Below are positions 1 to 12,168 of a stretch of 64,000 nt of DNA, in pieces; position 1 is the first letter of the stretch, and every line of letters starts with the position of its first letter. Location: contig NZ_BBYK01000059.1 in the NCBI RefSeq assembly GCF_001570365.1, forward strand, positions 1 to 64,000, in the 5' to 3' direction. The position numbers and the translations under genes were made by a program. This DNA comes from Microtetraspora fusca. Lineage in GTDB: Bacteria > Actinomycetota > Actinomycetes > Streptosporangiales > Streptosporangiaceae. A model generated the notes under the pieces. That model saw only the letters and a program-made list of their open reading frames with translations, ran no database searches and was not told the DNA's origin.

Positions 1-528
1 ATCCGGCCCCGCCCTGGGCCGGCCCGGCAGCATGCCCGAACTCCACGCGCCAGGGCCTCACACGCCAGAAGTCAGCGTGGGAAGTCAGCGTGCCGGAACT
101 CCATGTACTGGAGCTTCGCCCGAGACGACGGCGGGAAGCTGATGCCGACCACCGCCCGTCTCAGCGTGGTCGACTGCCCCCAGCAGTCGGACCGGCTTCA
201 TCCGCTTGGCCGGCTCCGCCACCAACCGCCCTGGCACCCGCGCTTCGGCCTCACCGAAAATTTGAGGCCGCATCAGTTCGGGGCCGCATCAGTTCGAGGC
301 CGCGATCAGGAGGCCGCGATCAGGAGGCCGCGATCAGGCGATGTGCCGACCGATCGCGGCGAAGAAACCTGAGGATTGGGGGCCGAGGCAGGCTCAAACG
401 GTCAGGTCGTTGGCTATCGATGAGCGGGCGCACCTCGTCCCGGGCATGTGCACGTCCTTCGGTCGGTCGCGCGAGGACTTTCGCCGCTGCGCCGGTGGCT
501 TTCGGCCTCGCGCGCTGGAGCCCTGCGG
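1..528. other. Region without a convincing gene
   Basis: No frame here has a supported start and a recognisable product. Short open frames exist on both strands but do not look like known families. The stretch carries two 13-base copies of GAAGTCAGCGTGG-like sequence near 71-92 and a tandem repeat block at 266-338. It may be the eroded 3' end of a gene that lies left of the window, but nothing here proves that. Confidence 0.5.
266..338. repeat. Short tandem repeats, GGCCGC...CAG family
   Basis: Two copies of GGCCGCATCAGTTCG (266-280 and 282-296) are followed by three copies of GGCCGCGATCAGGA (298-311, 312-325, 326-338, the last lacking its final base). The two units share the GGCCGC...TCAG core, so the block looks like slippage of one ancestral unit. 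No function is visible. Confidence 0.8.
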
Positions 529-1035
529 TCACTCGCCGGTGGCGCCGTCGATGCGCTCGCGCAGCAGGTCGGCGTGCCCGTTGTGGCGGGCGTACTCCTC
601 GATCATGTGGACGAGGATCCAGCGGTGGGAGCAGTCCTGGCCGTGGCGCTGCCGCTTGCCCACCGCGTCGAGCGGCACGCCGGCCGAGATCTCGCGGGCG
701 CGCTCGATCTCGGCCTGCCATGTGGCGAACGCCTCTTCGGCCGACGCGCCGTCCACGTCGTCGAAATCGGCGTTGGGTGCGACGTCCTTGCCCCACAGCC
801 GGGGGACGTCCTCGCCGTCGAGGATCACGCGGAACCACACCTGCTCCACGTGGGCCATGTGCCGGACCAGTCCGAGCAGCGACATGCTCGACGGCGGCGC
901 CGAGCGCTCGCGGAGCTGCTCCTCGGAGAGCCCGGCGCACTTGACGGCGAGCGTGCCGCGATGCCAGTCGAGCCAGTTGTTCAGCATGGCCCGCTCGTCG
1001 CCGATGAACGGAGGAGGCACGCGATTATCGGTCAT
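529..1035 (-). CDS. DinB-like DUF664 family protein
   Basis: This 168-residue protein fits the mini-DinB/DUF664 group of four-helix-bundle proteins, many of which bind a metal through three histidines and may act as thiol-dependent transferases. Visible features are the early W-L-x-W-H-R-G-T-L motif, SLLGLVRHMAHVEQVWF with a metal-type histidine, and the C-terminal HMIEEYARHNGHADLLRE histidine motif, all typical of DUF664. The ATG at 1035 is chosen because the family begins close to it; a longer upstream reading would add 64 low-complexity residues. It is divergent from the RNA-repair operon. The substrate cannot be predicted. Confidence 0.85.
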   Translation of the reverse strand: MTDNRVPPPFIGDERAMLNNWLDWHRGTLAVKCAGLSEEQLRERSAPPSSMSLLGLVRHMAHVEQVWFRVILDGEDVPRLWGKDVAPNADFDDVDGASAEEAFATWQAEIERAREISAGVPLDAVGKRQRHGQDCSHRWILVHMIEEYARHNGHADLLRERIDGATGE

Positions 1036-1199
1036 GCCCGCACAGTACAGGGCGGCTTTTCGGGCCATGAGCGGATTATCGGCGTAACACCCCTTCCGTT
1101 CCGGCACGCCGGATCCGGATCCCCCACCGGTGGTGCTCCGCTCCCCCGGACGAAGGCACGGATTATTCGATGGCCCCGCCCGTGCCCGCTCTCGTACAG

Positions 1200-1235
1200 T
1201 CACCCGGGCAGTCACCTGGGCGGTCACCCGGGCCG
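1200..1235 (+). repeat. Three tandem 12-bp repeats upstream of the RNA ligase gene
   Basis: Three consecutive 12-base units begin at 1200, 1212 and 1224, of the form TCACC(C/T)GGGC followed by AG, GG or CG. Two units contain the palindrome CCCGGG. They end 27 bases before the ATG of the RNA ligase-kinase gene, inside the 227-bp divergent gap, which is where a regulator site or the leader of the mRNA would lie. A binding role is inference only. Confidence 0.6.
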
Positions 1236-1262
1236 GGACGTCGTCAGCGGGAGAGCGAGAAC

Positions 1263-3017
1263 ATGCGCGTCCACTACCCTCGCACCCCGCACCTGCCCTG
1301 GTCTCCCGGGACGACAGAGGACGACGTACGGGCGGGCGGAGTGTCCGGCCTGGCGGGCCGGGAGGTCGTCGTCACCCAGAAGCTCGACGGCGAGAACACC
1401 ACCATGTACGCCGACGGAGTCCACGCACGGTCGCCGGACTCCGGGCACCACCCGTCCCGTGCCTGGGTCAAGGCCCTGCACGGCAGGGTCGCCCGCTCCA
1501 TCCCGCCGGGGTGGCGAGTGTGCGGCGAGAACCTCTACGCCCGGCACTCGATCGCGTACGCCGACCTGGAGAGCTGGTTCTACGTCTTCTCCGTCTGGGA
1601 CGGCGACCGCTGCCTGGACTGGGACGCGACCGTACGCTTCGCACGACGGCTGGGGCTCCCGGTCCCGCCGGTGCTGTGGCGCGGGGTCTTCGACGAACGC
1701 GCCCTGCGGGCCCTGCGCCTGGACACGGCCCGGTGCGAGGGATACGTGGTGCGGACCGTCGAGGGGTTCCGCCGGGAGGAGTTCCCCCATCGCGTGGCCA
1801 AGTGGGTGCGTCCGAGCCATGTGCGTACGGACGAGCACTGGATGCTCGCGCCCGTCGTCCCCAACGGCCTCGGCCCGGCCTCCGCGCTGTGGGAGGTCCG
1901 TTCGGGGGGCGCTCCCGCCGTGCCGTCGCTCCTCGCCGCGCTGGGGACGGAGCACGCGACGAGTCCCGCCATGCCGGACGAGGCGGCGGTCGCGGAGGTC
2001 ACCGCCCATCTCGACGTGCTGGGCCGTACGGGGGACGCCCGGCTCGTGGGCGTGCTGGCGGCGCTCTTCAACCGCACGCGCCGGGCGTGGCTGGCGCCCC
2101 GGCTGGTGGCCCCGCTCGGCATGGGGCTCGCGCGGCGGGTCGCCGACCTCGTCGGCCTGCACGCCCGCCTGCGTACCCCGTTCCCGGACGACGAGCGCCG
2201 TGCCGGTCTGGCCCGGATGGCGGCGGCGGCCGACCTGGGCGTCCTGCACGCGGTCGCCGCCGCCGCGCTGGCCGGCTGCCGTGACGGCGACGCCGCCGAG
2301 GCGCGGGAGCAGATCGCCTGGTCCGAACTCCACGCCGAGGACGCCGGGCTGCTCAGGGAGGACCCGCTGCGTCCGCTCGCCGAGGGCCTGCGGGAGGCGC
2401 TCGACGGCTGCGACCCGGACGCGGCGGACCGCTGCTGGGGCGAGTCGCGGGACGCGTACGCGCGGGGCCGGATCTCCACGGCCGAGGAGGCCGTGGCGGC
2501 GACCTGGCGGTGGCGGTCGGGCCGGTTTCCCCGGCTCGTCGTCATGGTGGGGCCGTCGGGCAGCGGGAAGAGCACCCTCGCCCGGAAGATCGCGTCCGGT
2601 GGGCGTGACGCCGTGGTGGTCTCGCTCGACGACCTGCGCGAGGCCCGCGGATCGCGGTCGGATCAGCGGGCGAATCCCGCGATCCTCGCTGAGGGCCTGC
2701 GCCGGCTCGACGCGCTGCTGGCCGGCGGAGAGACGATTGTGTGGGACGCCACCTCCCTCACCCGGCGGCAGCGTTCCCTCGTCCACGCGGTGGCCCGCCG
2801 CCGCGACGCGCTGACGACGCACGCGGTCATGCTGGTCGGCGGCGAGGAGCTGGCCCGGCGCAACGCCGTACGAGCGGACGGGGTGCCGCCCGAGGTGCTC
2901 GCGGCGCAGCTCCGGCGCTTCGATCCGCCCTACCCGTGGGAGGCGCACCGCACCTGGTACGCCGGGCCGGACGGCGGCGTCCGGGACACCTCTGGAACTC
3001 TCGACAGCACGTACTGA
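1263..3017 (+). CDS. RNA ligase fused to polynucleotide kinase
   Basis: This 584-residue two-domain RNA repair enzyme is predicted to phosphorylate 5'-OH RNA ends and then seal nicks or breaks. Residues about 1-200 are a nucleotidyltransferase-type RNA ligase: motif I is KLDGEN with the AMP-accepting lysine at K40, motif III-like FYVFSVWDG lies at 106-114, motif IV EGYVV at 159-163 and motif V VAKW at 178-181. A helical, alanine-rich middle (about 230-415) follows. Residues about 424-560 are a P-loop kinase with Walker A GPSGSGKST (430-438), SLDDLRE at 454 and DATSLTRRQR at 495, as in Pnkp-type kinases. The ATG at 1263 follows a GGGAGAG ribosome site. The next gene starts 14 bases after the stop. 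There is no obvious 3'-end phosphatase domain, which the neighbour could supply. Confidence 0.88.
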   Translation: MRVHYPRTPHLPWSPGTTEDDVRAGGVSGLAGREVVVTQKLDGENTTMYADGVHARSPDSGHHPSRAWVKALHGRVARSIPPGWRVCGENLYARHSIAYADLESWFYVFSVWDGDRCLDWDATVRFARRLGLPVPPVLWRGVFDERALRALRLDTARCEGYVVRTVEGFRREEFPHRVAKWVRPSHVRTDEHWMLAPVVPNGLGPASALWEVRSGGAPAVPSLLAALGTEHATSPAMPDEAAVAEVTAHLDVLGRTGDARLVGVLAALFNRTRRAWLAPRLVAPLGMGLARRVADLVGLHARLRTPFPDDERRAGLARMAAAADLGVLHAVAAAALAGCRDGDAAEAREQIAWSELHAEDAGLLREDPLRPLAEGLREALDGCDPDAADRCWGESRDAYARGRISTAEEAVAATWRWRSGRFPRLVVMVGPSGSGKSTLARKIASGGRDAVVVSLDDLREARGSRSDQRANPAILAEGLRRLDALLAGGETIVWDATSLTRRQRSLVHAVARRRDALTTHAVMLVGGEELARRNAVRADGVPPEVLAAQLRRFDPPYPWEAHRTWYAGPDGGVRDTSGTLDSTY

Positions 3018-3031
3018 TACGGACTGAGCCG

Positions 3032-4138
3032 ATGCGAACGAGCGAAGAGATCTATCACCGGGTGCGCTGGGATCCGCGTTTCGATCCGGCGCGCTTCGTG
3101 CTGGGGATCAACGTGCGCGGGGCCGCGCCCGCGCGGGTGCCGCTTCCCGATTTCGTGGCCGGAGGCGACATCCCCTGGCACCGCGTCGTCTTCATCGAGG
3201 CGGACGGCGAGACGGTCTGGGACCGCGCCTCCGGCGTGGACCGGCTGGACGAGACCCGGGCCGGGCGGGTGCGCGAGCCGCGCCGGCTCCGCGAGCCGTC
3301 CTTCACCGCCTGCCCGCCGTACGTCTGGGATCGGGTGGCCGGGTGGCGTCCGGCTCCCCCGGCGCCGAGTGTGGGGACGCGCCCGGGGACGGCGCTGCGC
3401 GTTCTGACCTGGAACACCCTGTGGGACCGCTACGACGGCGACCGCATCCACACGTCCCGGCGCAGGCCGCTGCTGCTGGAGGCGCTCGAACGGGCCGACG
3501 CCGACGTCATCGCGCTGCAGGAGGTGGAGAGCGAGCTGCTCGGCATGCTGCTGCGCGCGCCGTGGGTCCGCTCCGCGTACACACTGGGGTCGGACCCGAC
3601 CGGCCGGGACGTGTACGACACCGGGCTGCTCCTGCTCAGCCGCCTTCCGGTGCGGGAGGCGGGCCACCACGTCCTCGGCCCGCACAAGGCCGTCACCGCC
3701 GTGACCGTGGAGTCGGGCGCGGGCCCGATCGTCGTGGCCGCCACGCACCTCACCAGCGACCACGCGGAGGACGCCGCGTCCCGGCGCGACGCCGAGCTGG
3801 CCACGCTCGCCGGCGCGCTGCGCGGTGTGGAGGGCGATCTCGTCCTGCTGGGCGACTTCAACGACGGCGGAAACGCTCCCGCCGACGCGCTCGGCCTGCG
3901 GGACGCCTGGACCGAGGTGCACGGCATCGACGACCGGACGCCGACCTTCGATCCGCGCGCGAACCCGCTGGCGGCGATCTCCTCGCTGACCGGCCGGGCG
4001 TTGCGGATCGACCGCGTGCTGCTGCGCGGCCACGGGCTGCGCGTCGTCGCGGCGGAGCTGCGCGGCGACTCCCCCGCGACCCCGGACGGCCTGTTCGTGT
4101 CCGACCACTACGGCGTCGCCGTGGATCTCGTCGCCTGA
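3032..4138 (+). CDS. MJ1316 (DUF504) domain fused to EEP phosphodiesterase
   Basis: The protein has 368 residues. Positions 1-75 match the MJ1316/DUF504 domain (VRWDPRFDP at 11-19, DIPWHRVVFI at 46-55, GETVWDR at 59-65), which has been proposed from comparative genomics to recognise cyclic-phosphate RNA ends. Positions about 120-368 form an endonuclease/exonuclease/phosphatase domain with its conserved set intact: TWN (N128), LQE (E164), THL (H239), GDFND (274-278) and SDH (357-359). The gene follows the RNA ligase-kinase by 14 bases, so the two are almost certainly one operon. The inferred job is to open and remove 2',3'-cyclic phosphate, giving the 3'-OH the ligase needs; human ANGEL2 is an EEP precedent. 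Activity is not proven by sequence. Confidence 0.85.
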   Translation: MRTSEEIYHRVRWDPRFDPARFVLGINVRGAAPARVPLPDFVAGGDIPWHRVVFIEADGETVWDRASGVDRLDETRAGRVREPRRLREPSFTACPPYVWDRVAGWRPAPPAPSVGTRPGTALRVLTWNTLWDRYDGDRIHTSRRRPLLLEALERADADVIALQEVESELLGMLLRAPWVRSAYTLGSDPTGRDVYDTGLLLLSRLPVREAGHHVLGPHKAVTAVTVESGAGPIVVAATHLTSDHAEDAASRRDAELATLAGALRGVEGDLVLLGDFNDGGNAPADALGLRDAWTEVHGIDDRTPTFDPRANPLAAISSLTGRALRIDRVLLRGHGLRVVAAELRGDSPATPDGLFVSDHYGVAVDLVA

Positions 4139-4183
4139 GGGGGCGGCTGAGGGGGCGGCTGAGGGGGCGGCTGAGGGGGCGGC
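4136..4183 (+). repeat. Four tandem 12-bp repeats starting at a stop codon
   Basis: The unit TGAGGGGGCGGC occurs four times without interruption (4136, 4148, 4160, 4172), and a fifth TGAG follows. The first TGA is the stop codon of the MJ1316-EEP gene, and because the unit is 12 bases each copy repeats the stop in the same frame. The array lies between two converging genes. Confidence 0.9.
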
Positions 4184-4220
4184 TGAGTCCAGCCTGACCG
4201 GCCGGGGTCACCCGGGGGCC

Positions 4221-5234
4221 TCACCTGCCGAGCAGCTCCACCGAACGGGCGGCGGCGTGGAGGAAGACCGGGTCGCCGGTGAGCGCGTGCTGCCGCAGCG
4301 CCGCCTCGGTCAACTTGATGGCGTGGGCGTCGCCGGTCTCGGCCGCCCGCCCGGCCAGCTCCTCCGGTGCCTGAGGAGCGTCGGTCGGCAGCGGCTCCAC
4401 CGTGCCCTGGTAGGCGTACCCGCTGTACAGCGCGGCCGCCACCTGCCACAGGGCGTCGTACGTGGGACGCCACAGTTCGACGGGCAGGTGATCCAGCACC
4501 GACGACACGGCCACCGGCGCCGTCACCGCGTGGATGAAGTCGATCGGCGCGTGCCTGCCGTGGGTCAGGAACACCCCGGCGAACACCCGGGTCAGCTCGG
4601 TCAGGTCGGCGGCGACGTCCGTCGGCGGCCGCAGGGACGAGACGGCTTCGGGGAACGCCGGCAGGTCCCGCAGGTGTGCGAGGTGCACCACGATCCGCTC
4701 GGTCGGCGCGAGCTCCAGAATGGGCAGGACCGCGACGGCCTGGTCGAGCGTGCGCGCGCCGACGGTCAGCGGCCGTCCCGGCAGCTCGACGTATCCGGCC
4801 GCCCAGTACGCCAGCGCCCGGGCCAGCTCGGCGAGCCTGGGCGGGGTCTCCTGTTCGGCGAGCGCCCGGACGGCGTGCGAGGTGCGGATCACGCCGTGGG
4901 TGGCCCCGGCGGCCAGGCCGGGGGTGAGCCGCGGCCACCACTCGGTCAGCACTTCGCGCCAGGGCGCCTCGGCGAGGCGTTCGGTGAAGTAGGCGGTCCA
5001 GTCGCCGATCCGGCGCCGGTCGCCGAGCGCGGCCCGCCAGTCGGCGATCCGGTCGGCCCGGCTCGGGCCGCCTTCGAGCTTCGGCAGATAGTCGGAGACC
5101 CAGCCGGGGATCTCCTCCGCCGCGCCGAGCCGTACCAGGGCCTCGACGACCATCGGGCCGTGGTTGGACAGGCCGCCGCGGTACTCGGGGCCGGTGGGCG
5201 CCAGCCGGACGAGCGCCTCGTCGAGAAGATCCAT
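4221..5234 (-). CDS. Questin oxidase family protein (DUF4243)
   Basis: This 337-residue protein starts with the family's hallmark, an acidic leader and RGGLSNHGPMVVEALVRLG, then has the conserved W-x-x-Y/Y-L-P-K-L segment. It also carries the later motifs HGVIRTSHAVRAL and FIHAVTAPVA, with histidines that could hold a cofactor. Fungal members oxidise questin or related polyketides in a Baeyer-Villiger-like step; bacterial members are mostly uncharacterised. The start ATG at 5234 has a GGGAAG ribosome site seven bases upstream. It is divergent from an ArsR-type regulator, with only 36 bases between the starts, so it is probably that regulator's target. The substrate is unknown. Confidence 0.82.
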   Translation of the reverse strand: MDLLDEALVRLAPTGPEYRGGLSNHGPMVVEALVRLGAAEEIPGWVSDYLPKLEGGPSRADRIADWRAALGDRRRIGDWTAYFTERLAEAPWREVLTEWWPRLTPGLAAGATHGVIRTSHAVRALAEQETPPRLAELARALAYWAAGYVELPGRPLTVGARTLDQAVAVLPILELAPTERIVVHLAHLRDLPAFPEAVSSLRPPTDVAADLTELTRVFAGVFLTHGRHAPIDFIHAVTAPVAVSSVLDHLPVELWRPTYDALWQVAAALYSGYAYQGTVEPLPTDAPQAPEELAGRAAETGDAHAIKLTEAALRQHALTGDPVFLHAAARSVELLGR

Positions 5235-5244
5235 ATCGCTTCCC

Positions 5245-5270
5245 TTCTATATAGAATGAAGACTATATAG
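5245..5270. promoter_or_regulatory. Paired CTATATAG palindromes between questin oxidase and ArsR genes
   Basis: The 36-base divergent gap holds a perfect 12-base palindrome TTCTATATAGAA (5245-5256) and a second copy of its 8-base core CTATATAG (5263-5270), spaced 16 bases start to start. The second core touches the ATG of the ArsR gene, which leaves no room for a Shine-Dalgarno site and implies a leaderless or near-leaderless message. The A/T-rich cores stand out in this genome and are the obvious ArsR operators. Confidence 0.7.
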
Positions 5271-5582
5271 ATGCTAGGCGATACGCTACCCAATGTGGAC
5301 GTCGAGGTGCTCCGGGCGCTGGCCCATCCGGTTCGGCTCGGGATCGTGCGCATGCTCGCGGCCGAGCCCGACATCTGCGCGTGCGACTTCACCGACGAGT
5401 TCGCGGTGAGCCAGCCGACGATCTCCGCCCATCTCAAGGTGCTGCGCGAGGCCGGTCTGGTGCGTACGCGACGCGAGGGCACCACCATCTGCTATTCGCT
5501 CGTGCCGGAAACGCTGGCCGGGGTCGCGACCGAGCTGCAGCGGCTCGCCGGACCCGCCGCCGTCCTGACCCGGCACGCCTGA
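5271..5582 (+). CDS. ArsR-family transcriptional regulator
   Basis: The protein has 103 residues and one winged-helix domain: LRALAHPVRLGIVRML, then the recognition helix VSQPTISAHLKVLREAGLV and the wing RREGTTICYSL. The ICACDF segment near residue 36 resembles the ELCVCDL metal-binding helix of ArsR/SmtB proteins, with two cysteines, so metal or thiol sensing is possible. It is divergent from the questin oxidase gene and presumably represses both genes through the palindromes at 5245-5270. The ATG at 5271 lies directly against one palindrome; a GTG at 5295 is the only close alternative. Confidence 0.9.
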   Translation: MLGDTLPNVDVEVLRALAHPVRLGIVRMLAAEPDICACDFTDEFAVSQPTISAHLKVLREAGLVRTRREGTTICYSLVPETLAGVATELQRLAGPAAVLTRHA

Positions 5583-5611
5583 CAACCCCGTCCGGCGCGG
5601 GCCGCGGACGG

Positions 5612-5962
5612 TTACGGAACGACGCCGCCGAGATGGGCGGCGGCCACGCTCTTGGGCACGGCCATGCGCCACGCCTCGACGACGATCTCCCGCATCTCGG
5701 CCCGGCCGACGGCGGCCGCGGTGAGCTCGACCCAGTTGAACCGCATGTCGGACGGCCGCGGCAGGTGGAACTTCTCCGGCTCCGCCGCGACGAGCGCCGC
5801 GCGCTCCTCCTTCGGGAAGGCGAACCCCATCGTCGTCTCGTCGGCCGAGAAGGCGACGTAGACGATCCGGCCCACCCGGAACTTGATCCGGTCCCTGATC
5901 AGGTGCTCGGTGGTGCGCGGCAGCGCCAGCGCCACCCGGCGCACGTCGTCCACTGTGATCAT
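5612..5962 (-). CDS. MmcQ/YjbR family protein
   Basis: This 116-residue single-domain protein matches the MmcQ/YjbR fold in full: V-D-D-V-R-R-V-A-L-A-L-P near the N terminus, the basic strand KFRVGRIVYVAFS, then FPKEERAALV and the C-terminal helix AWRMAVPKSVAAAHL. Family members have a CyaY-like, predicted DNA-binding fold, but no defined biochemical function. It lies 34 bases downstream of the MarR gene on the same strand and may be cotranscribed with it. Confidence 0.88.
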   Translation of the reverse strand: MITVDDVRRVALALPRTTEHLIRDRIKFRVGRIVYVAFSADETTMGFAFPKEERAALVAAEPEKFHLPRPSDMRFNWVELTAAAVGRAEMREIVVEAWRMAVPKSVAAAHLGGVVP

Positions 5963-5996
5963 CTGTCGTCCGTCCCCTCCGGTCCGCCCGTGCGGC

Positions 5997-6494
5997 TCAC
6001 TCCGCAGCAGAGTGGCCGGGCGCGGGCGGCAGGTCCAGTCCGGACTCGGCGATGCGGTCCCGGAACGGCTTGCGCCGCAGCGCTCGTACGGCCTCCGCGA
6101 GCAGGTCGGCGAGGGGCATCGGCAGCTCGGCGTCGAGCTCCCGGGCGGCGGCCGCGGTCGCGGCCCACTCCGCCTCGATGACCGGCAGGATCTCGCGGGC
6201 CTGCGGGGTGAGGCTGGCGATTCGCTGACGGGCGTCCGCGCCCGGCTCGAGCGCGACCAGGCCGGAGCGGGCGAGCTGCGCCACAGTCTGACTGGCGGCC
6301 GAGTGCGTCACGCCGACCTTCGCGGCCAGCTCGCGGATGGACGAGGGCCCGTCGGCCACCAGAACCCGGACGTACGGCGAAAAGCGGGGCCGGTAGTCGG
6401 GCAGGCCCAGCTCGTCGTAGACCTTCGCCACGTCGCCGTCGAGCAGCTCCAGCACGTGACGCAGCAGGGTCCCGAGGGCGGCGCGTTCCGGCAT
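5997..6494 (-). CDS. MarR-family transcriptional regulator
   Basis: This is a winged-helix regulator of about 165 residues. The helix-turn-helix is SIRELAAKVGVTHSAASQTVAQLARSGLV and the wing is DARQRIASLTPQARE. It is divergent from the proline iminopeptidase gene. The ATG at 6494 has GGAG only three bases upstream; a GTG at 6503 would give a leaderless message and is an alternative start. An imperfect inverted repeat in the shared promoter (6511-6528) is the likely operator. Downstream, the MmcQ/YjbR gene follows closely. Confidence 0.88.
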   Translation of the reverse strand: MPERAALGTLLRHVLELLDGDVAKVYDELGLPDYRPRFSPYVRVLVADGPSSIRELAAKVGVTHSAASQTVAQLARSGLVALEPGADARQRIASLTPQAREILPVIEAEWAATAAAARELDAELPMPLADLLAEAVRALRRKPFRDRIAESGLDLPPAPGHSAAE

Positions 6495-6510
6495 CGTCTC
6501 CACAGGGCTA

Positions 6511-6528
6511 ATGTAACAGCACTGTCAT
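6511..6528. promoter_or_regulatory. Candidate MarR operator
   Basis: ATGTAACAG and CTGTCAT face each other across two bases, making an imperfect inverted repeat typical in length and A/T content of MarR sites. It lies between the divergent MarR and proline iminopeptidase genes, 17 bases from the regulator start and 25 bases from the enzyme start. Confidence 0.55.
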
Positions 6529-6552
6529 AACTTTCCGAAGAAGGGGCGGCGA

Positions 6553-7512
6553 ATGAGCCTTTATCCCCAAATTGAGCCATACGACGGCGGGATGCTCAAC
6601 GTGGGCGACGGGCATCGCGTCCACTGGGAGACGTACGGCAACCCGGACGGCAAGCCCGCCGTCGTGCTGCACGGCGGGCCCGGATCCGGCTGCACGCCGG
6701 GCTGGCCGCGCTACTTCGATCCGGAGGCGTACCGGGTCGTGCTGTTCGACCAGCGCGGCTGCGGCAGGAGCACGCCGCGCGCCGACGCCCCGGCGGCCGA
6801 CCTGTCCACCAATACAACCCCGCACCTGGTGGCCGACATCGAACGGCTGCGCGAGCACCTGGGAATCGAACGCTGGCTGGTCCTCGGCGCGTCATGGGGA
6901 TCGACGCTGGGGCTGGCCTACGCCGAGACGCACCCCGAGAGGGTCTCGGAGATGGTCCTGTTCAGCGTCGTCATGACCACCCGGCGGGAGGTCGAGTGGG
7001 TGACCCGCGCGATGGGCCGGGTCTTCCCCGAGGAGTGGGAACGCTTCCGGAACGGCGTCCCCGAGGCCGACCGCGACGGTGACCTCGCCGCGGCGTACAG
7101 CAGGCTGCTGCACGATCCCGACCCCGAGGTACGGGACAGGGCGGCCAGGGACTGGTGCGCCTGGGAGGACACCCACGTCGCCACCGCGAGGGATCACCGG
7201 CCCGATCCCCGCTACGAGGACCCCGTCTTCCGCATGGTCTTCGCCCGGCTCGTCACGCACTACTGGAGCCACGCGGCGTGGCTGGAGGACGGCGCGCTCA
7301 TGAAGGGCGCGGAGCGGCTCGCCGGCATCCCCGGGGTCCTGATCCACGGCCGCCTCGACATCAGCGGCCCGCCGGACATCCCCTGGCAGCTCGCCCGCGT
7401 CTGGCCGGACGCGACGCTCGTCCTCGTCGACGACGCGGGGCACGGCGCCCACCCCACCACGAACGAGGCCGTCGTCGCCGCGACCGGCCGCTTCGCCGCC
7501 CTCCCCCGGTAG
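6553..7512 (+). CDS. pip: Proline iminopeptidase (alpha/beta hydrolase, S33)
   Basis: This 319-residue cytoplasmic peptidase removes N-terminal proline from peptides. The oxyanion motif HGGPGSG is at residues 40-46, DQRGCGRS at 66-73 and the nucleophile elbow GASWGS at 112-117 with S114. The C-terminal DDAGHGAH supplies the catalytic histidine, and the acid is the aspartate in IHGRLDI. Length and motif spacing match the family. The start ATG has an AAGGGG ribosome site six bases upstream. It is divergent from a MarR regulator that probably controls it. Confidence 0.92.
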   Translation: MSLYPQIEPYDGGMLNVGDGHRVHWETYGNPDGKPAVVLHGGPGSGCTPGWPRYFDPEAYRVVLFDQRGCGRSTPRADAPAADLSTNTTPHLVADIERLREHLGIERWLVLGASWGSTLGLAYAETHPERVSEMVLFSVVMTTRREVEWVTRAMGRVFPEEWERFRNGVPEADRDGDLAAAYSRLLHDPDPEVRDRAARDWCAWEDTHVATARDHRPDPRYEDPVFRMVFARLVTHYWSHAAWLEDGALMKGAERLAGIPGVLIHGRLDISGPPDIPWQLARVWPDATLVLVDDAGHGAHPTTNEAVVAATGRFAALPR

Positions 7513-7564
7513 CCCAGGTCCTCGGCCTGCCCCTGGAGAAAACGCCCCGCGCAAGGGCGGCGGG

Positions 7565-7750
7565 TCAGCAGCACCGGGCGCCGGGGTCGGCGTCCCGCCG
7601 GTCGATCCGCAGCCGTTCGTACTCCCGCCGGGAGAGCGGCGGGGTGGGCGAGTGAGCGCGGTGCCGTTCGAGGTACCGGTCGTACTCCGCCTCCCCGGTG
7701 ATCTCCCGGACGTACCACCGGACGAAGCTCAGCAGGGAACGCGGGGTCAC
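7565..7750 (-). CDS. YbdD/YjiX family small protein
   Basis: This 61-residue protein matches the short YbdD/YjiX family encoded next to CstA-type transporters. It shows W-Y-x-R-E-I-T-G-E-A-E-Y-D-R-Y near the start, the S-R-R-E-Y/F-E-R-x-R segment, and the conserved terminal Arg-Cys-Cys. Its start overlaps the stop of the cstA gene by four bases (ATGA), so the two are translationally coupled. The biochemical role of the family is not established; a transporter accessory role is inferred from constant linkage. Confidence 0.88.
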   Translation of the reverse strand: MTPRSLLSFVRWYVREITGEAEYDRYLERHRAHSPTPPLSRREYERLRIDRRDADPGARCC

Positions 7751-9954
7751 GGGGCCTGCGCCTCCTCGCCGTCACGCCCGGCGGCGGCGCCGGTGCCCGT
7801 GCCCTCGGCCGCGCCCGCGTACGCCGGCGCGCGCCGCTCGACGGCGGTGGAGAACAGCCCGGACGGCGCGACGATGCGCGACTCGACGTACGGCGCCTCG
7901 GCCGTCGGCAGCGGCTCCCGGGCGCGTACGGCCCGCACGCAGACGACGAGGGCGTTGCCGATGACCAGGAGGACGAGCAGCGCGAACATCGCGGCGAGCA
8001 CGCCGTCGATGGTGGAGTTCACGACGACCGTGTGCATCTGGTCGAGGTTCTTCGCCGGTGGGAGGACCTTGCCCGCCGCCAGCGCGTCCGCGTACTTCGC
8101 CCGCTGGGCGAAGAAGCCGATCTTGGGGTCGTCGTGGAAGACCTTCTGCCAGCTCGCGGTCAGCGTCACCGCCGCGTCCCACAGGAGCGGGATAGCGGTG
8201 ACCCACGCCCACCGCAGCTTGCCCGACTTGATCAGAAGCGTGGTGCAGAGGGTCAGCGCGATGGCGGCGAGGAGCTGGTTCGCGATGCCGAACAGCGGGA
8301 AGAGCTGGTTGATCCCGCCCAGCGGGTCACTGACCCCGGCGTAGAGGAAGTAGCCCCAGGCGAGCACGACCAGCGCGCTGGTGCCCCACAAGCCGGGCTT
8401 CCAGCTCACCCGCCCGATCGGCTTCCAGATGTTGCCGAGCGTGTCCTGCAACATGAACCGGCCGACGCGGGTGCCCGCGTCCACGGTGGTCAGGATGAAC
8501 AGCGCCTCGAACATGATCGCGAAGTGGTACCAGAACGCCTTGAACCCCGTCCCGCCGAAGATGCCGGACAGGATCTCCGAGATCCCGACGGCGAGCGTGG
8601 GGGCGCCTCCGGCGCGCGCGATCACGGTCTGCTCCTCGACCGCCGCCGCGGCCGCCCGCAGGTCCTCCGGGGTGATGACGAACCCCAGCTTGCCCACCGC
8701 GGCCGCCGCGCTCTCGGCGGTGGTGCCGAGCAGCCCCGCGGGCGCGTTCATCGCGTAGTACAGGCCGGGTTCGAGGGCGGAGGCGGCGATCAGCGCCATG
8801 ATGGCGACGAACGACTCCATCAGCATCGCGCCGTACCCGATCAGCCGGACCTGCGACTCCTTCTGGATCATCTTCGGCGTGGTGCCCGAGGCGATGAGCG
8901 CGTGGAAGCCCGACAGCGCGCCACAGGCGATCGTGATGAACACGAACGGGAAGAGGGAGCCGGCGAAGACGGGCCCGTTGCCGTCGAGCGCGAAGGACGT
9001 GATCGCCTCGTTCCGCAGGTGCGGGGCCGCGACGAGCACGCCGACGGCGAGCAGCCCGATCGTCCCGACCTTCATGAACGTCGAGAGGTAGTCGCGGGGG
9101 GCGAGCAGCAGCCAGACGGGGAGCACCGACGCGAAGAATCCGTAGACCACCAGGCAGACGACGAGGGTCTGCGGGCTGAGCGTGAACGCGCCGGCCAGCG
9201 GCGAGCCCTCGATCCAGCCGCCGCCCGCGATGGCCAGCAGGAGCAGCGCCACCCCGATCACCGTGGCCTCCATGACCCGGCCGGGACGCAGGACACGCAG
9301 GTAGAGCCCCATGAAAAGCGCGATCGGGATGGTCATCGCGATGGAGAACGTGCCCCAGGGAGACGAGGCGAGGGCGTTCACCACGACCAGGGCGAGCACA
9401 CCGAGCAGGATGATCATGATGGAGAAGACCGCGAGCAGCGCGGCGGCGCCGCCGACCGGGCCCATCTCCTCCCGGACCATCTGGCCGAGGCTCTTGCCGT
9501 CCCGGCGCATCGAGAAGAACAGGGTCACCATGTCCTGGACCGCGCCGGCCAGGATGACACCGACGATGATCCAGATGGTCCCGGGCAGGTAGCCCATCTG
9601 CGCGGCGAGCACCGGGCCGACCAGCGGGCCGGCGCCCGCGATGGCGGCGAAATGGTGGCCGAGCAGCACGCGGCGGTCGGTCGGGTGGAAGTCGACGCCG
9701 TTGTCGAGCCGCTCGGCGGGGGTGGCCCGGCGGTCGTCCACGCCGAGCACCCGGCGGGCGATGAAGCGGGAGTAGAAGCGATACGCGATCGCGTACGAGC
9801 CGAGGGCGGCGGCCACCAGCCAGATGGCCGAGATCTTCTCGCCTCGGGACAGGGCGAGGACGCCCCAGGCCACCGCGCCCACCACCGCGACGGCGGTCCA
9901 CACGAGGACGGATTTGGGCCTGGCTTTCGCGCCACCGGGGCCGATTCTGGACAT
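7747..9954 (-). CDS. cstA: Carbon starvation CstA-family transporter
   Basis: This 735-residue polytopic membrane protein belongs to the CstA/BtsT family, which takes up peptides or pyruvate, often during carbon limitation. Visible family features include AYRFYSRFIARRVLGVDD, the P-T-D-R-R-V-L-L-G-H-H-F-A-A-I-A-G-A-G-P-L-V-G-P block, GTIWIIVGVILAGAVQDM and the late FPLFGIANQLLAAIAL. About 15-18 hydrophobic segments can be seen. The ATG at 9954 is preferred because AGGAGG lies seven bases upstream; a longer frame to 9993 reads through that ribosome site. YbdD is coupled downstream. The actual solute cannot be told from sequence. Confidence 0.92.
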   Translation of the reverse strand: MSRIGPGGAKARPKSVLVWTAVAVVGAVAWGVLALSRGEKISAIWLVAAALGSYAIAYRFYSRFIARRVLGVDDRRATPAERLDNGVDFHPTDRRVLLGHHFAAIAGAGPLVGPVLAAQMGYLPGTIWIIVGVILAGAVQDMVTLFFSMRRDGKSLGQMVREEMGPVGGAAALLAVFSIMIILLGVLALVVVNALASSPWGTFSIAMTIPIALFMGLYLRVLRPGRVMEATVIGVALLLLAIAGGGWIEGSPLAGAFTLSPQTLVVCLVVYGFFASVLPVWLLLAPRDYLSTFMKVGTIGLLAVGVLVAAPHLRNEAITSFALDGNGPVFAGSLFPFVFITIACGALSGFHALIASGTTPKMIQKESQVRLIGYGAMLMESFVAIMALIAASALEPGLYYAMNAPAGLLGTTAESAAAAVGKLGFVITPEDLRAAAAAVEEQTVIARAGGAPTLAVGISEILSGIFGGTGFKAFWYHFAIMFEALFILTTVDAGTRVGRFMLQDTLGNIWKPIGRVSWKPGLWGTSALVVLAWGYFLYAGVSDPLGGINQLFPLFGIANQLLAAIALTLCTTLLIKSGKLRWAWVTAIPLLWDAAVTLTASWQKVFHDDPKIGFFAQRAKYADALAAGKVLPPAKNLDQMHTVVVNSTIDGVLAAMFALLVLLVIGNALVVCVRAVRAREPLPTAEAPYVESRIVAPSGLFSTAVERRAPAYAGAAEGTGTGAAAGRDGEEAQAP

Positions 9955-10174
9955 GGATGATCCTCCTGAAATCAGGGCAGGACTAAACGCCACGGGGATC
10001 GCCGGAAAAGATCGGCTCAGCCTCCCGGGGGTTGAGACGGAGCCGCTTTACCGTGCCGCAGGCCCCCGCAATTGCGGCATTACGGGCGGCGCGCGGCACG
10101 TTCACGATCAGCGCGCATTCTCGCCATACCCGTACCGCGGGGGCAGGGCATGGCCGATCGCGCTGATCGCGTAA
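9955..10174. promoter_or_regulatory. Leader of cstA with a 12-bp palindrome
   Basis: This 220-base gap lies upstream of cstA. It holds CCGCAATTGCGG, a perfect 12-base palindrome at 10066-10077, about 112 bases before the cstA start, plus G/C-rich inverted segments near 10015-10050. The palindrome is a candidate operator. No coding region or known riboswitch is recognisable. Confidence 0.45.
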
Positions 10175-10456
10175 TTAGGGGATGCCGTCGTCGAGCCCGT
10201 CGCGATCAGCCCGGCCGTCACGACCGCCGTGATCACGGCGGGCTTCGGCAGGCCGATCACGTCGCAGCGCGTACGCGGCGGCCATGAACACGACGCTCCC
10301 CGGCACCCAGGCAAGCTGATACCAGAAGAAAAACCGCATTCCGGCCAAATGCGGCGCATCGTGGGGATACCACGGTACCCAGAGGAGCGCCATCACGGGA
10401 AACGCGAGGCAGACGCCGGCGGCGACCCGCCGTGCCGTCCAATGCGGCTTCACCAT
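10175..10456 (-). CDS. DUF3311 family small membrane protein
   Basis: This 93-residue protein has two hydrophobic segments. Its core, F-P-V-M-A-L-L-W-V-P-W-Y and then FFFWYQLAWVPGSVVFMAAAYALRR, is the DUF3311 signature. The family is normally encoded just upstream of, and in the same direction as, a sodium:solute symporter and probably forms a small subunit of it. Here it is divergent from the symporter gene at 10606 instead. The ATG at 10456 has GGAGGG four bases upstream. The hydrophilic tail after residue 70 is rich in Arg/Asp/Gly and unlike the family. Confidence 0.82.
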   Translation of the reverse strand: MVKPHWTARRVAAGVCLAFPVMALLWVPWYPHDAPHLAGMRFFFWYQLAWVPGSVVFMAAAYALRRDRPAEARRDHGGRDGRADRDGLDDGIP

Positions 10457-10605
10457 CGTGCCCTCCGGAATGTTCCGCGGTCTGATGCAGGGTTGCGGAC
10501 ACGGGCGTTCTGGTTTACCCCGTTTTTCGGGGAAATTTCGTGTCAACCAACCGAGGGCTCCGCGCAACTTGAGGGTAATTGCCGGGCTTCTGTGGACGGT
10601 GGCCG

Positions 10606-12168
10606 ATGATCGAGCCGTTGAGTGCGACGACGTTCCTCGCGGTGCTCGGCGGCACCTCACTGCTCGCGGTCGCCGCCCGGAGGTTCCGTCCCCCTCCGGA
10701 GCTGCCCACCCTGGAGAGCTGGGCGCTCGCGGACCGCCGGTTCGGCACGCCGACGACCTGGTTCCTGCTCGGCGGGACGATCTACACGGCCTACACCTTC
10801 GCCGCCGTACCCGGCCTCGTGTACGGCGCCGGCGCGATCGGGTTCTTCGCCCTGCCGTACACGGTGATCGTGTGCCCGCTCGCGTTCGTGCTGCTGCCGC
10901 GGCTCTGGTCGGAGGCCCGCCGCCACGGCCACCTCACCGCCGCCGACGTGGTCCGGCAACGGTACGGATCCCCGGCCCTCGCGCTGGTCGTGGCGGTGAC
11001 CGGGGTGCTGGCCACGATGCCGTACATCGCGCTGCAGCTCGTCGGCATCCGCGCCGTGCTGTCGGCGGGCGGGCTCTACCCGCGCGGCCTGATCGGCGAC
11101 CTCGCGCTGGTCGCCGTGTTCGCGGTGCTCGCCGTGGCCACGTACCGGCACGGCCTGCGCGCCCCGGCGGTGATCTCGCTGATGAAGGGGGTGGCGATCT
11201 TCTGCGCCGCGCTCGCGGTCTCCTTCCTCGTGCTCGACCGGTTCGGCGGGCCGGGCCCGATGTTCGACGGCGCCGAGCGGGCGCCGGCCTCGGGCGCGCT
11301 CCCCCAGGCGTCCCTCAGCCTCGACCCGAGCCTGTTCGCGGTGTACGCCACCCTCGCCCTGGGCTCGGCGCTCGCGCTGCTGCTCTACCCGCACGTGCTG
11401 ACCCCCACGTTCGCCGCGGCGAGCGCCGACACGCTGCGCCGCGCGTCCATCGCGCTGCCCGCCTGGACGGCGGTGCTCGCGGTGTTCGCCCTGCTCGGCG
11501 TCGCCGCGCTGGCGTCCGGCGTGCAGGTCCCACCCGGCAGCGCGGAGGCGGCCGTCCCGCTGCTGGTCAAGGAGCTGATGCCGGCGGCCCTGACCGGCCT
11601 CGTCTTCGGCGCGCTCGCGGTGGGCGCGCTGGTCCCCGCCGCGGTCATGTCGGTCGCCGTGGCGACCACGTTCGTCCGCAACATCTACGTCGAGTGTTTC
11701 CATCCGACCGCCACTCCGAAGCACCAGAGGCGGGTCGCGCAACTCGTCTCGCTCACCGCGAAGATCGGCGCGGCCGTCTTCGTGTTCGGGCTGCGCGATC
11801 AGGACGCCATCAACCTGCAACTGCTCGGCGGGGTCTGGATCCTGCAGACCTTCCCCGCCGTCGCCCTCGGCCTGTTCACCCGGCGGTTCCACCGGCGGGC
11901 GCTGCTGGCCGGATGGGGCGCCGGCATGGCGGCGGGCACGCTCATGGTCGTCTACAGCGGCTTCTCGTCGCTGGTGCCCGTCGGCCTGGGCGGCCAGGGG
12001 GTGCAGGCGTACGCGGCGGTGGTGGCGCTGGCGCTGAACCTCGCCGTCGTGGTGACCCTGACGCCGCTGCTCAACCGGACGTGCGCGGCCGGACCGCCTC
12101 CGGGACGCGGCGCGCAGGCCCCCGTACCGCCCGTCTCCGTTCCGCCCTCCTCGGGGCCGGCCCGGTGA
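10606..12168 (+). CDS. Sodium:solute symporter family transporter
   Basis: The protein has 520 residues and about 12-13 membrane segments and belongs to the SSS (SLC5-like) family. Matching segments include W-A-L-A-D-R-R-F-G-T-P-T-T-W-F-L-L-G-G-T near residue 40, PYIALQLVGIRAVLSAGG, and ALLLYPHVLTPTFAAASADTLRRA. It resembles MctP-type monocarboxylate permeases, and the divergent DUF3311 gene supports that. Substrate is likely a small carboxylate, by family only. No strong ribosome site precedes the ATG at 10606. The sigma-factor gene begins inside its stop codon (GTGA). Confidence 0.85.
   Translation: MIEPLSATTFLAVLGGTSLLAVAARRFRPPPELPTLESWALADRRFGTPTTWFLLGGTIYTAYTFAAVPGLVYGAGAIGFFALPYTVIVCPLAFVLLPRLWSEARRHGHLTAADVVRQRYGSPALALVVAVTGVLATMPYIALQLVGIRAVLSAGGLYPRGLIGDLALVAVFAVLAVATYRHGLRAPAVISLMKGVAIFCAALAVSFLVLDRFGGPGPMFDGAERAPASGALPQASLSLDPSLFAVYATLALGSALALLLYPHVLTPTFAAASADTLRRASIALPAWTAVLAVFALLGVAALASGVQVPPGSAEAAVPLLVKELMPAALTGLVFGALAVGALVPAAVMSVAVATTFVRNIYVECFHPTATPKHQRRVAQLVSLTAKIGAAVFVFGLRDQDAINLQLLGGVWILQTFPAVALGLFTRRFHRRALLAGWGAGMAAGTLMVVYSGFSSLVPVGLGGQGVQAYAAVVALALNLAVVVTLTPLLNRTCAAGPPPGRGAQAPVPPVSVPPSSGPAR

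Follow-up and report, generated by a model that had tools for sequence, protein, structure and literature searches.

A paired ligase-kinase and MJ1316-EEP operon in Microtetraspora fusca as a probable RNA break-repair system

Locus organisation

Near the start of a 64,000-nucleotide stretch of the Microtetraspora fusca genome (assembly GCF_001570365.1, contig NZ_BBYK01000059.1, positions 1 to 64,000 of the forward strand; hereafter the window) lie two adjacent genes, here called A and B, which probably form an operon for the repair of RNA breaks through end healing and sealing. Both are on the forward strand, with 14 bp between the stop codon of A, which ends at 3017, and the ATG of B at 3032. 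A first-pass annotation, made from the sequence alone, had described a ligase-kinase gene followed 14 bp on by an MJ1316-EEP gene, and open reading frames and Pfam matches bear this out, with the motifs in their predicted places. Of the span it gave, 1200-4138, the end is exact, and the beginning lies some 60 bp ahead of the true start codon at 1263. An in-frame ATG lies further upstream, at 1170; the start of gene A is nonetheless placed at 1263, because the conserved protein begins there with MRVHYPRTPHLPW and because a promoter-like element occupies 1162-1200. The operon is made up as follows:

1162-1200, + strand: promoter-like element ATTATT-CGA-TGGCCC-N18-TACAGT (motif search; layout of WblC/WhiB7 promoters)
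1263-3017, + strand: gene A, RNA ligase-helical domain-5'-kinase, 584 aa (open reading frame, Pfam, alignment, AlphaFold2 model)
1263-1871, + strand: ATP-dependent RNA ligase (nucleotidyltransferase) domain, gene A residues 1-203 (K40 in KLDGEN; Pfam, alignment)
1872-2507, + strand: all-helical middle domain, gene A residues 204-415 (AlphaFold2 model, alignment)
2508-3014, + strand: Pnkp-like polynucleotide 5'-kinase, gene A residues 416-584 (GPSGSGKST 430-438, D456, R459)
3032-4138, + strand: gene B, MJ1316-EEP, 368 aa (open reading frame, Pfam)
3032-3226, + strand: MJ1316 domain (PF04457), gene B residues 1-65 (Pfam)
3380-4135, + strand: EEP nuclease/phosphatase domain (complete active site; fold nearest TDP2 among the matches listed)

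Domains and active sites

Gene A opens with an ATP-dependent RNA ligase, as the lysine K40 in KLDGEN had first suggested: RNA_ligase (PF09414) matches residues 33-182 (E 1e-34, 120.2 bits against a cut-off of 27), and across 33 aligned A proteins, 57-95% identical to that of the window, the motif I lysine K40 is invariant, together with D42, G43 and the later motif residues E159 and K180. At the other end of the protein lies the proposed Pnkp-like kinase, with its Walker A motif at 430-438. Residues 425-556 match AAA_33 (E 3e-23); nearly all P-loop residues, D456, R459, R533 and N534 are invariant in the same alignment; and the nearest relative is the kinase of Clostridium thermocellum Pnkp (profile E 1e-11; VIA Z 17.2, rmsd 2.5, 154 residues), with T4 Pnkp matching as well and the fungal Trl1-LIG-KIN (9r3w) among the Foldseek matches of A. 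Between the two, the helical domain, all-helical over residues 207-413, holds some invariant positions and is modelled at high confidence from about residue 240, in blocks mostly of 88-96 on the predicted local distance difference test (pLDDT). All three parts are resolved in the model of A as a whole, which has a mean pLDDT of 82.8; residues 1-25 and 184-201 are modelled poorly.

Gene B joins an MJ1316 domain to an intact EEP domain, in agreement with the first-pass description. The MJ1316 match (E 2e-17, 63.9 bits against a cut-off of 26.3) covers the full profile, 1-75, and is the only one in the 9.0 Mb genome. Exo_endo_phos (PF03372) follows at residues 125-359 (E 2e-18, 67.4 bits against a cut-off of 24.5). 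Among 31 aligned B proteins N128, E164, H239, D275, N277, D327, D358 and H359 are invariant, and with the complete catalytic N, E, H, D, N, D, H set and a profile score above the cut-off the protein belongs to the EEP superfamily. The model of B reaches a pLDDT of 90.6.

Relatives of the ligase domain occur in viruses. Many phage contigs (320 viral stretches; L203 4001-4609; L120-L199) encode free-standing ligases that share about 45-59% identity with residues 1-203 of A, and the domain is related to the stand-alone phage ligases phrog_34045 and phrog_24030. The former, annotated 'unknown function', is probably an RNA ligase. One phage relative, XacN1 ORF260, carries the label '2'-5' RNA ligase'. 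No viral copies of gene B were confirmed.

Pairing and distribution

A search with gene A yielded 80 related actinobacterial loci, and in 78 of them gene B lies directly downstream on the same strand, at gaps of up to about 120 bp. The exceptions are L070 (Actinospica), which is without B, and L075, where the contig ends; in Nonomuraea montanisoli (L041) the two genes share one open frame of 1585 aa. A case that would have told against the first-pass reading, that homologues of the two genes are usually unlinked, is thus the reverse of what the neighbourhood survey found. Gene B occurs in 26 of 151 family genomes, in 25 of which it is preceded by A or at least by its kinase end, and a phylum-wide sample of 396 genomes gave a full MJ1316-EEP match only in the window and two others; the operon is widespread in Streptomycetaceae and Streptosporangiaceae. 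No conserved third gene was found beyond A and B in these neighbourhoods, the recurring open reading frames either overlapping A and B or being common to close Streptomyces relatives. Given this pairing and the lack of any other recurring neighbour, the system is a linked two-gene unit of patchy distribution and without fixed neighbours. The suggested tie to toxins and tRNA anticodon cleavage accordingly found nothing to lean on: no neighbour is conserved, and a PADLOC search for defence systems gave nothing specific, its matches for A being confined to the P-loop and B having none.

Broken copies of A, B or both also occur (L234 in genome G508, L236 in G398, and L024), and the operon is often lost; the copy in G508 has several frame breaks and in G398 only the end of A is left.

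Gene B as a shortened form

In 64 of the 80 loci B is far longer than in the window, at roughly 900-1080 aa, and reads MJ1316-EEP-2H phosphoesterase-poly(A)-polymerase-like (PAP-like). The 2H part matches 2_5_RNA_ligase2 (E about 1e-32) and the PAP-like part PAP_central, and both keep their catalytic motifs, HxN/T...HxT/S and GS...DLDL respectively. Other arrangements exist: in 10 Streptomyces loci B is without the 2H part, and in L024 the PAP-like part lies beyond a stop. In the window and in M. malaysiensis (L002; also G436) B consists of MJ1316-EEP only; the two short forms are about 95% identical, and neither is interrupted by a stop or a frame break. The other three sampled Microtetraspora have full-length B. 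What was first read as a full kinase-phosphatase-ligase pathway therefore includes a lineage-specific truncation of a four-domain protein. No traces of 2H or PAP were found in the window by a search that picks up at least one of them in 75 relatives; a search of the genome for a stand-alone 2H-PAP part, run without a positive control, returned nothing at E <= 1.

Two different 12-bp tandem repeats flank the operon, the first in its leader, the second where gene B stops:

1197-1233, no strand assigned: 12-bp tandem repeat, 3.1 copies, CAGTCACCCGGG, between the -10 element and the gene A start codon
4135-4187, no strand assigned: 12-bp tandem repeat, 4.4 perfect copies, CTGAGGGGGCGG, including the gene B stop codon

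The second repeat marks the point at which B of the relatives runs on into the 2H and PAP-like domains. A degenerate repeat stands at the same place in M. malaysiensis, and the linker of L010 holds a GGVL repeat. Because the stop codon of B falls inside a perfect 12-bp repeat, and because L010 has its repeat in the same linker, a repeat-mediated deletion likely removed the two domains in the window lineage. The leader repeat is partly kept in M. malaysiensis and not evident in other relatives. No known RNA families were found in positions 1-12000 of the window. Positions 1-9000 are 92-96% identical to the M. malaysiensis locus; G436, apparently the same contig as that locus, is classed in another genus than the genome of the window.

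The four-domain protein and parts of it also occur apart from gene A. A conjugative plasmid of Calothrix brevissima (AP018209; L200 5995-8970) encodes MJ1316-EEP-2H-PAP with no ligase-kinase beside it and a dynamin-like GTPase gene nearby on the opposite strand. MJ1316-2H proteins without EEP are found on Streptomyces plasmids and, as an additional copy, on the chromosome of G459 (L202 4280-5158; L201 4818-5510; L235 4163-5050); some of the plasmid copies lack annotation or are broken.

Upstream element and predicted control

WhiB7/WblC is the master regulator of intrinsic antibiotic tolerance. In a motif search covering 81 upstream regions (the window and L002-L081) a single strong block stood out, scoring 2105 where shuffled sequence scored 611-622. 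Its layout resembles that of WblC-activated promoters of Streptomyces coelicolor: GAAAWY, 3 bp, TKGMNN, 16-19 bp, TANNNT (PMC7157823). A looser pattern, drawn up after the block had been seen (an AT-rich hexamer, 3 bp, a -35 element, 16-19 bp, TANNNT), occurs in 41 of the 81 loci and 18 of 35 representatives, compared with 0.135% of random windows, 0.02% of GC-matched windows, 0.12% of windows free of open reading frames (9/7292) and none of 3240 shuffles. The element at 1162-1200 fits this loose form and departs from the strict GAAAWY hexamer. Elsewhere in the genome (contig C41, L248) a WhiB protein ends in KRPRGRPRK, the AT-hook of WhiB7/WblC (PMC6282962). From this element and the AT-hook protein together, the operon is predicted to be induced by ribosome-targeting stress through WhiB7/WblC. 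Its control may differ in Catenulispora, Kitasatospora (L036) and some Streptomyces, since the pattern is missing there. A WblC-like site was looked for ahead of the Hen1 and RtcB genes of the same genome and not found, and no publication was found that links WhiB7 to a ligase-kinase/MJ1316-EEP operon.

Other repair genes and known systems

The first-pass annotation had cast the operon as a route that does without Pnkp/Hen1 or RtcB, and the rest of the genome contradicts this. Hen1 (E 2e-116), a Pnkp of 860 aa with all three domains, and RlaP form a complete cluster on contig C42, and the genome further encodes two RtcB proteins, KptA and stand-alone 2H proteins; with these at hand, the operon is, on gene content, an addition to other repair systems and not a substitute. 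The free 2H proteins could, we infer, supply the ring-opening step that gene B lacks. A second RNA_ligase gene adjoins one of the RtcB genes, and this ATP-dependent ligase and RtcB lie tail to tail (contig C54; L204 5589-8806).

A close parallel to gene A is fungal tRNA ligase Trl1, which carries ligase and Pnkp-like kinase on one chain in the same order and follows the same logic of healing and then sealing. Trl1, however, includes a cyclic phosphodiesterase and has neither MJ1316 nor EEP, whereas A has no 2H or cyclic phosphodiesterase domain in Pfam; the operon's 3'-end enzymes sit on the second protein, B, with 2H on that of the relatives. The Hen1-Pnkp-RlaP cassette likewise unites a Pnkp-type kinase and an adenylyltransferase ligase in an RNA-repair operon, to which a nucleotidyltransferase, RlaP, is joined, its counterpart being the PAP-like domain in the relatives' B. 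The A/B operon differs from that cassette in having no metallophosphoesterase domain and no Hen1, and A falls outside the bacterial Pnkp family (TIGR04075), scoring 37.3-39.3 bits over the kinase region only against a cut-off of 750.

For gene B, a functional precedent is ANGEL2, an EEP enzyme that converts 2',3'-cyclic phosphate to 2',3'-OH through a 2'-phosphate (PMC13247085). Both have the EEP fold with complete metal and catalytic residues; the EEP of B differs in lying nearest to TDP2 in sequence and, among the matches listed, in fold. We know of no MJ1316 fusion of ANGEL2. The proposal that MJ1316 recognises RNA ends is said to come from Burroughs and Aravind 2016 (NAR 44:8525). As far as the account in PMC6514570 conveys that work, it describes RNA-repair systems built around an RNA ligase, with MJ1316 recognising 2',3'-cyclic RNA ends and fused to repair domains, and the components of the operon may already be among them.

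Proposed pathway and alternatives

Breaks made by metal-independent ribonucleases leave a 5'-OH and a 2',3'-cyclic phosphate. The domain calls, the intact active sites and the near-obligate pairing of A and B make it probable that the operon heals and seals such ends, by steps which we infer as follows. On one side of the break, the kinase domain of A would add a phosphate to the 5' end; on the other, the cyclic end would be bound by MJ1316 of B and freed of its 3' phosphate by the EEP domain. EEP could do this directly through a 2'-phosphate, in the manner of ANGEL2, or could act once a separate 2H protein had opened the ring. The ligase domain of A would then join 5'-phosphate to 3'-OH with ATP. 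In relatives with 2H on B the work could be split, 2H yielding the 2'-phosphate and EEP removing it, and the PAP-like part could restore lost 3' nucleotides. The window lineage, having lost both, would have to manage without these parts or rely on the free 2H proteins encoded elsewhere in its genome. WhiB7/WblC, acting together with the housekeeping sigma factor, would turn on transcription in response to blocked ribosomes; RNA damaged near translating ribosomes, as substrate, would suit such a promoter.

Several observations weigh against this account. Firstly, the ligase domain of A gave no significant profile match to solved RNA ligases. Secondly, the closest profile match of the EEP domain is TDP2 (E 5e-8), which among the matches listed is also first by fold (VIA Z 26.0, rmsd 2.6, 235 residues), ahead of sphingomyelinases, nocturnin (Z 23.0) and CNOT6L (Z 21.8); CNOT6L, of the CCR4/ANGEL branch, is only a weak match, and the analogy with ANGEL2 that the first-pass annotation had drawn is weakened to that extent. 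Thirdly, the predicted induction is read from a promoter pattern, whose strict WblC consensus occurs in only 3 of the 81 loci, against 41 for the loose form. Finally, the 2H and PAP-like parts are missing in the window lineage, and the pathway may be incomplete or decaying there: between the window and M. malaysiensis the ratio of non-synonymous to synonymous substitution rates (dN/dS) is 0.43 for B and 0.19 for A, compared with 0.33 (same part of B) and 0.24 in the full-length pair L003/L004. Constraint on B persists and, by this measure, may be relaxed.

For that last reason a decaying remnant is kept among the alternatives, in which deletion across the repeat took the 2H and PAP-like domains of B and left no working pathway in the window lineage. 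The full-length B of the other three sampled members of the genus, the cut point within a 12-bp tandem repeat, the broken copies in G508, G398 and L024 and the higher dN/dS of B are all in keeping with decay. It is nevertheless unlikely, for the catalytic EEP positions and the invariant MJ1316 positions are all intact, dN/dS is still below 1, M. malaysiensis has the same unbroken short form, and MJ1316-EEP retains its partner gene and promoter. A similarly low probability attaches to the view that the EEP domain is a TDP2-like phosphodiesterase removing a 5' or 3' adduct, or a nuclease trimming RNA ends, and that the operon mends a different lesion. The rank of TDP2 ahead of nocturnin and CNOT6L speaks for it; the substrate of EEP enzymes, however, is not given by their shared fold, and its fusion partners, MJ1316 and in relatives also a 2H cyclic phosphodiesterase, suggest cyclic-phosphate ends. 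Housekeeping RNA maturation (circularisation, or rRNA or tRNA processing) would accommodate the lack of conserved toxin or defence genes nearby and the wide occurrence in Streptomycetaceae and Streptosporangiaceae, but with B in only 26 of 151 family genomes, three clear cases in 396 across the phylum, decay in others, and RtcB and Hen1-Pnkp already in the genome, the pattern is hard to square with an essential role in processing, and this reading is quite improbable.

Implications

Beyond the repair of RNA breaks as such, a fuller picture can be put forward tentatively, and is itself doubtful: a WhiB7/WblC-controlled repair operon, so far unrecognised in that regulon, may allow actinomycetes that sense ribosome stress to deploy a Trl1-like ligase-kinase together with a multi-enzyme 3'-end processor (MJ1316-EEP-2H-PAP), and in the window lineage MJ1316-EEP alone would suffice for 3'-end healing. 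If the repair reading is true, actinomycetes would possess a separate RNA-mending pathway beside RtcB and Hen1-Pnkp, and the mending of RNA would be tied to the regulator of intrinsic antibiotic tolerance. The natural variants of gene B without 2H, without PAP or without both would then help to assign a job to each of its end-processing enzymes.

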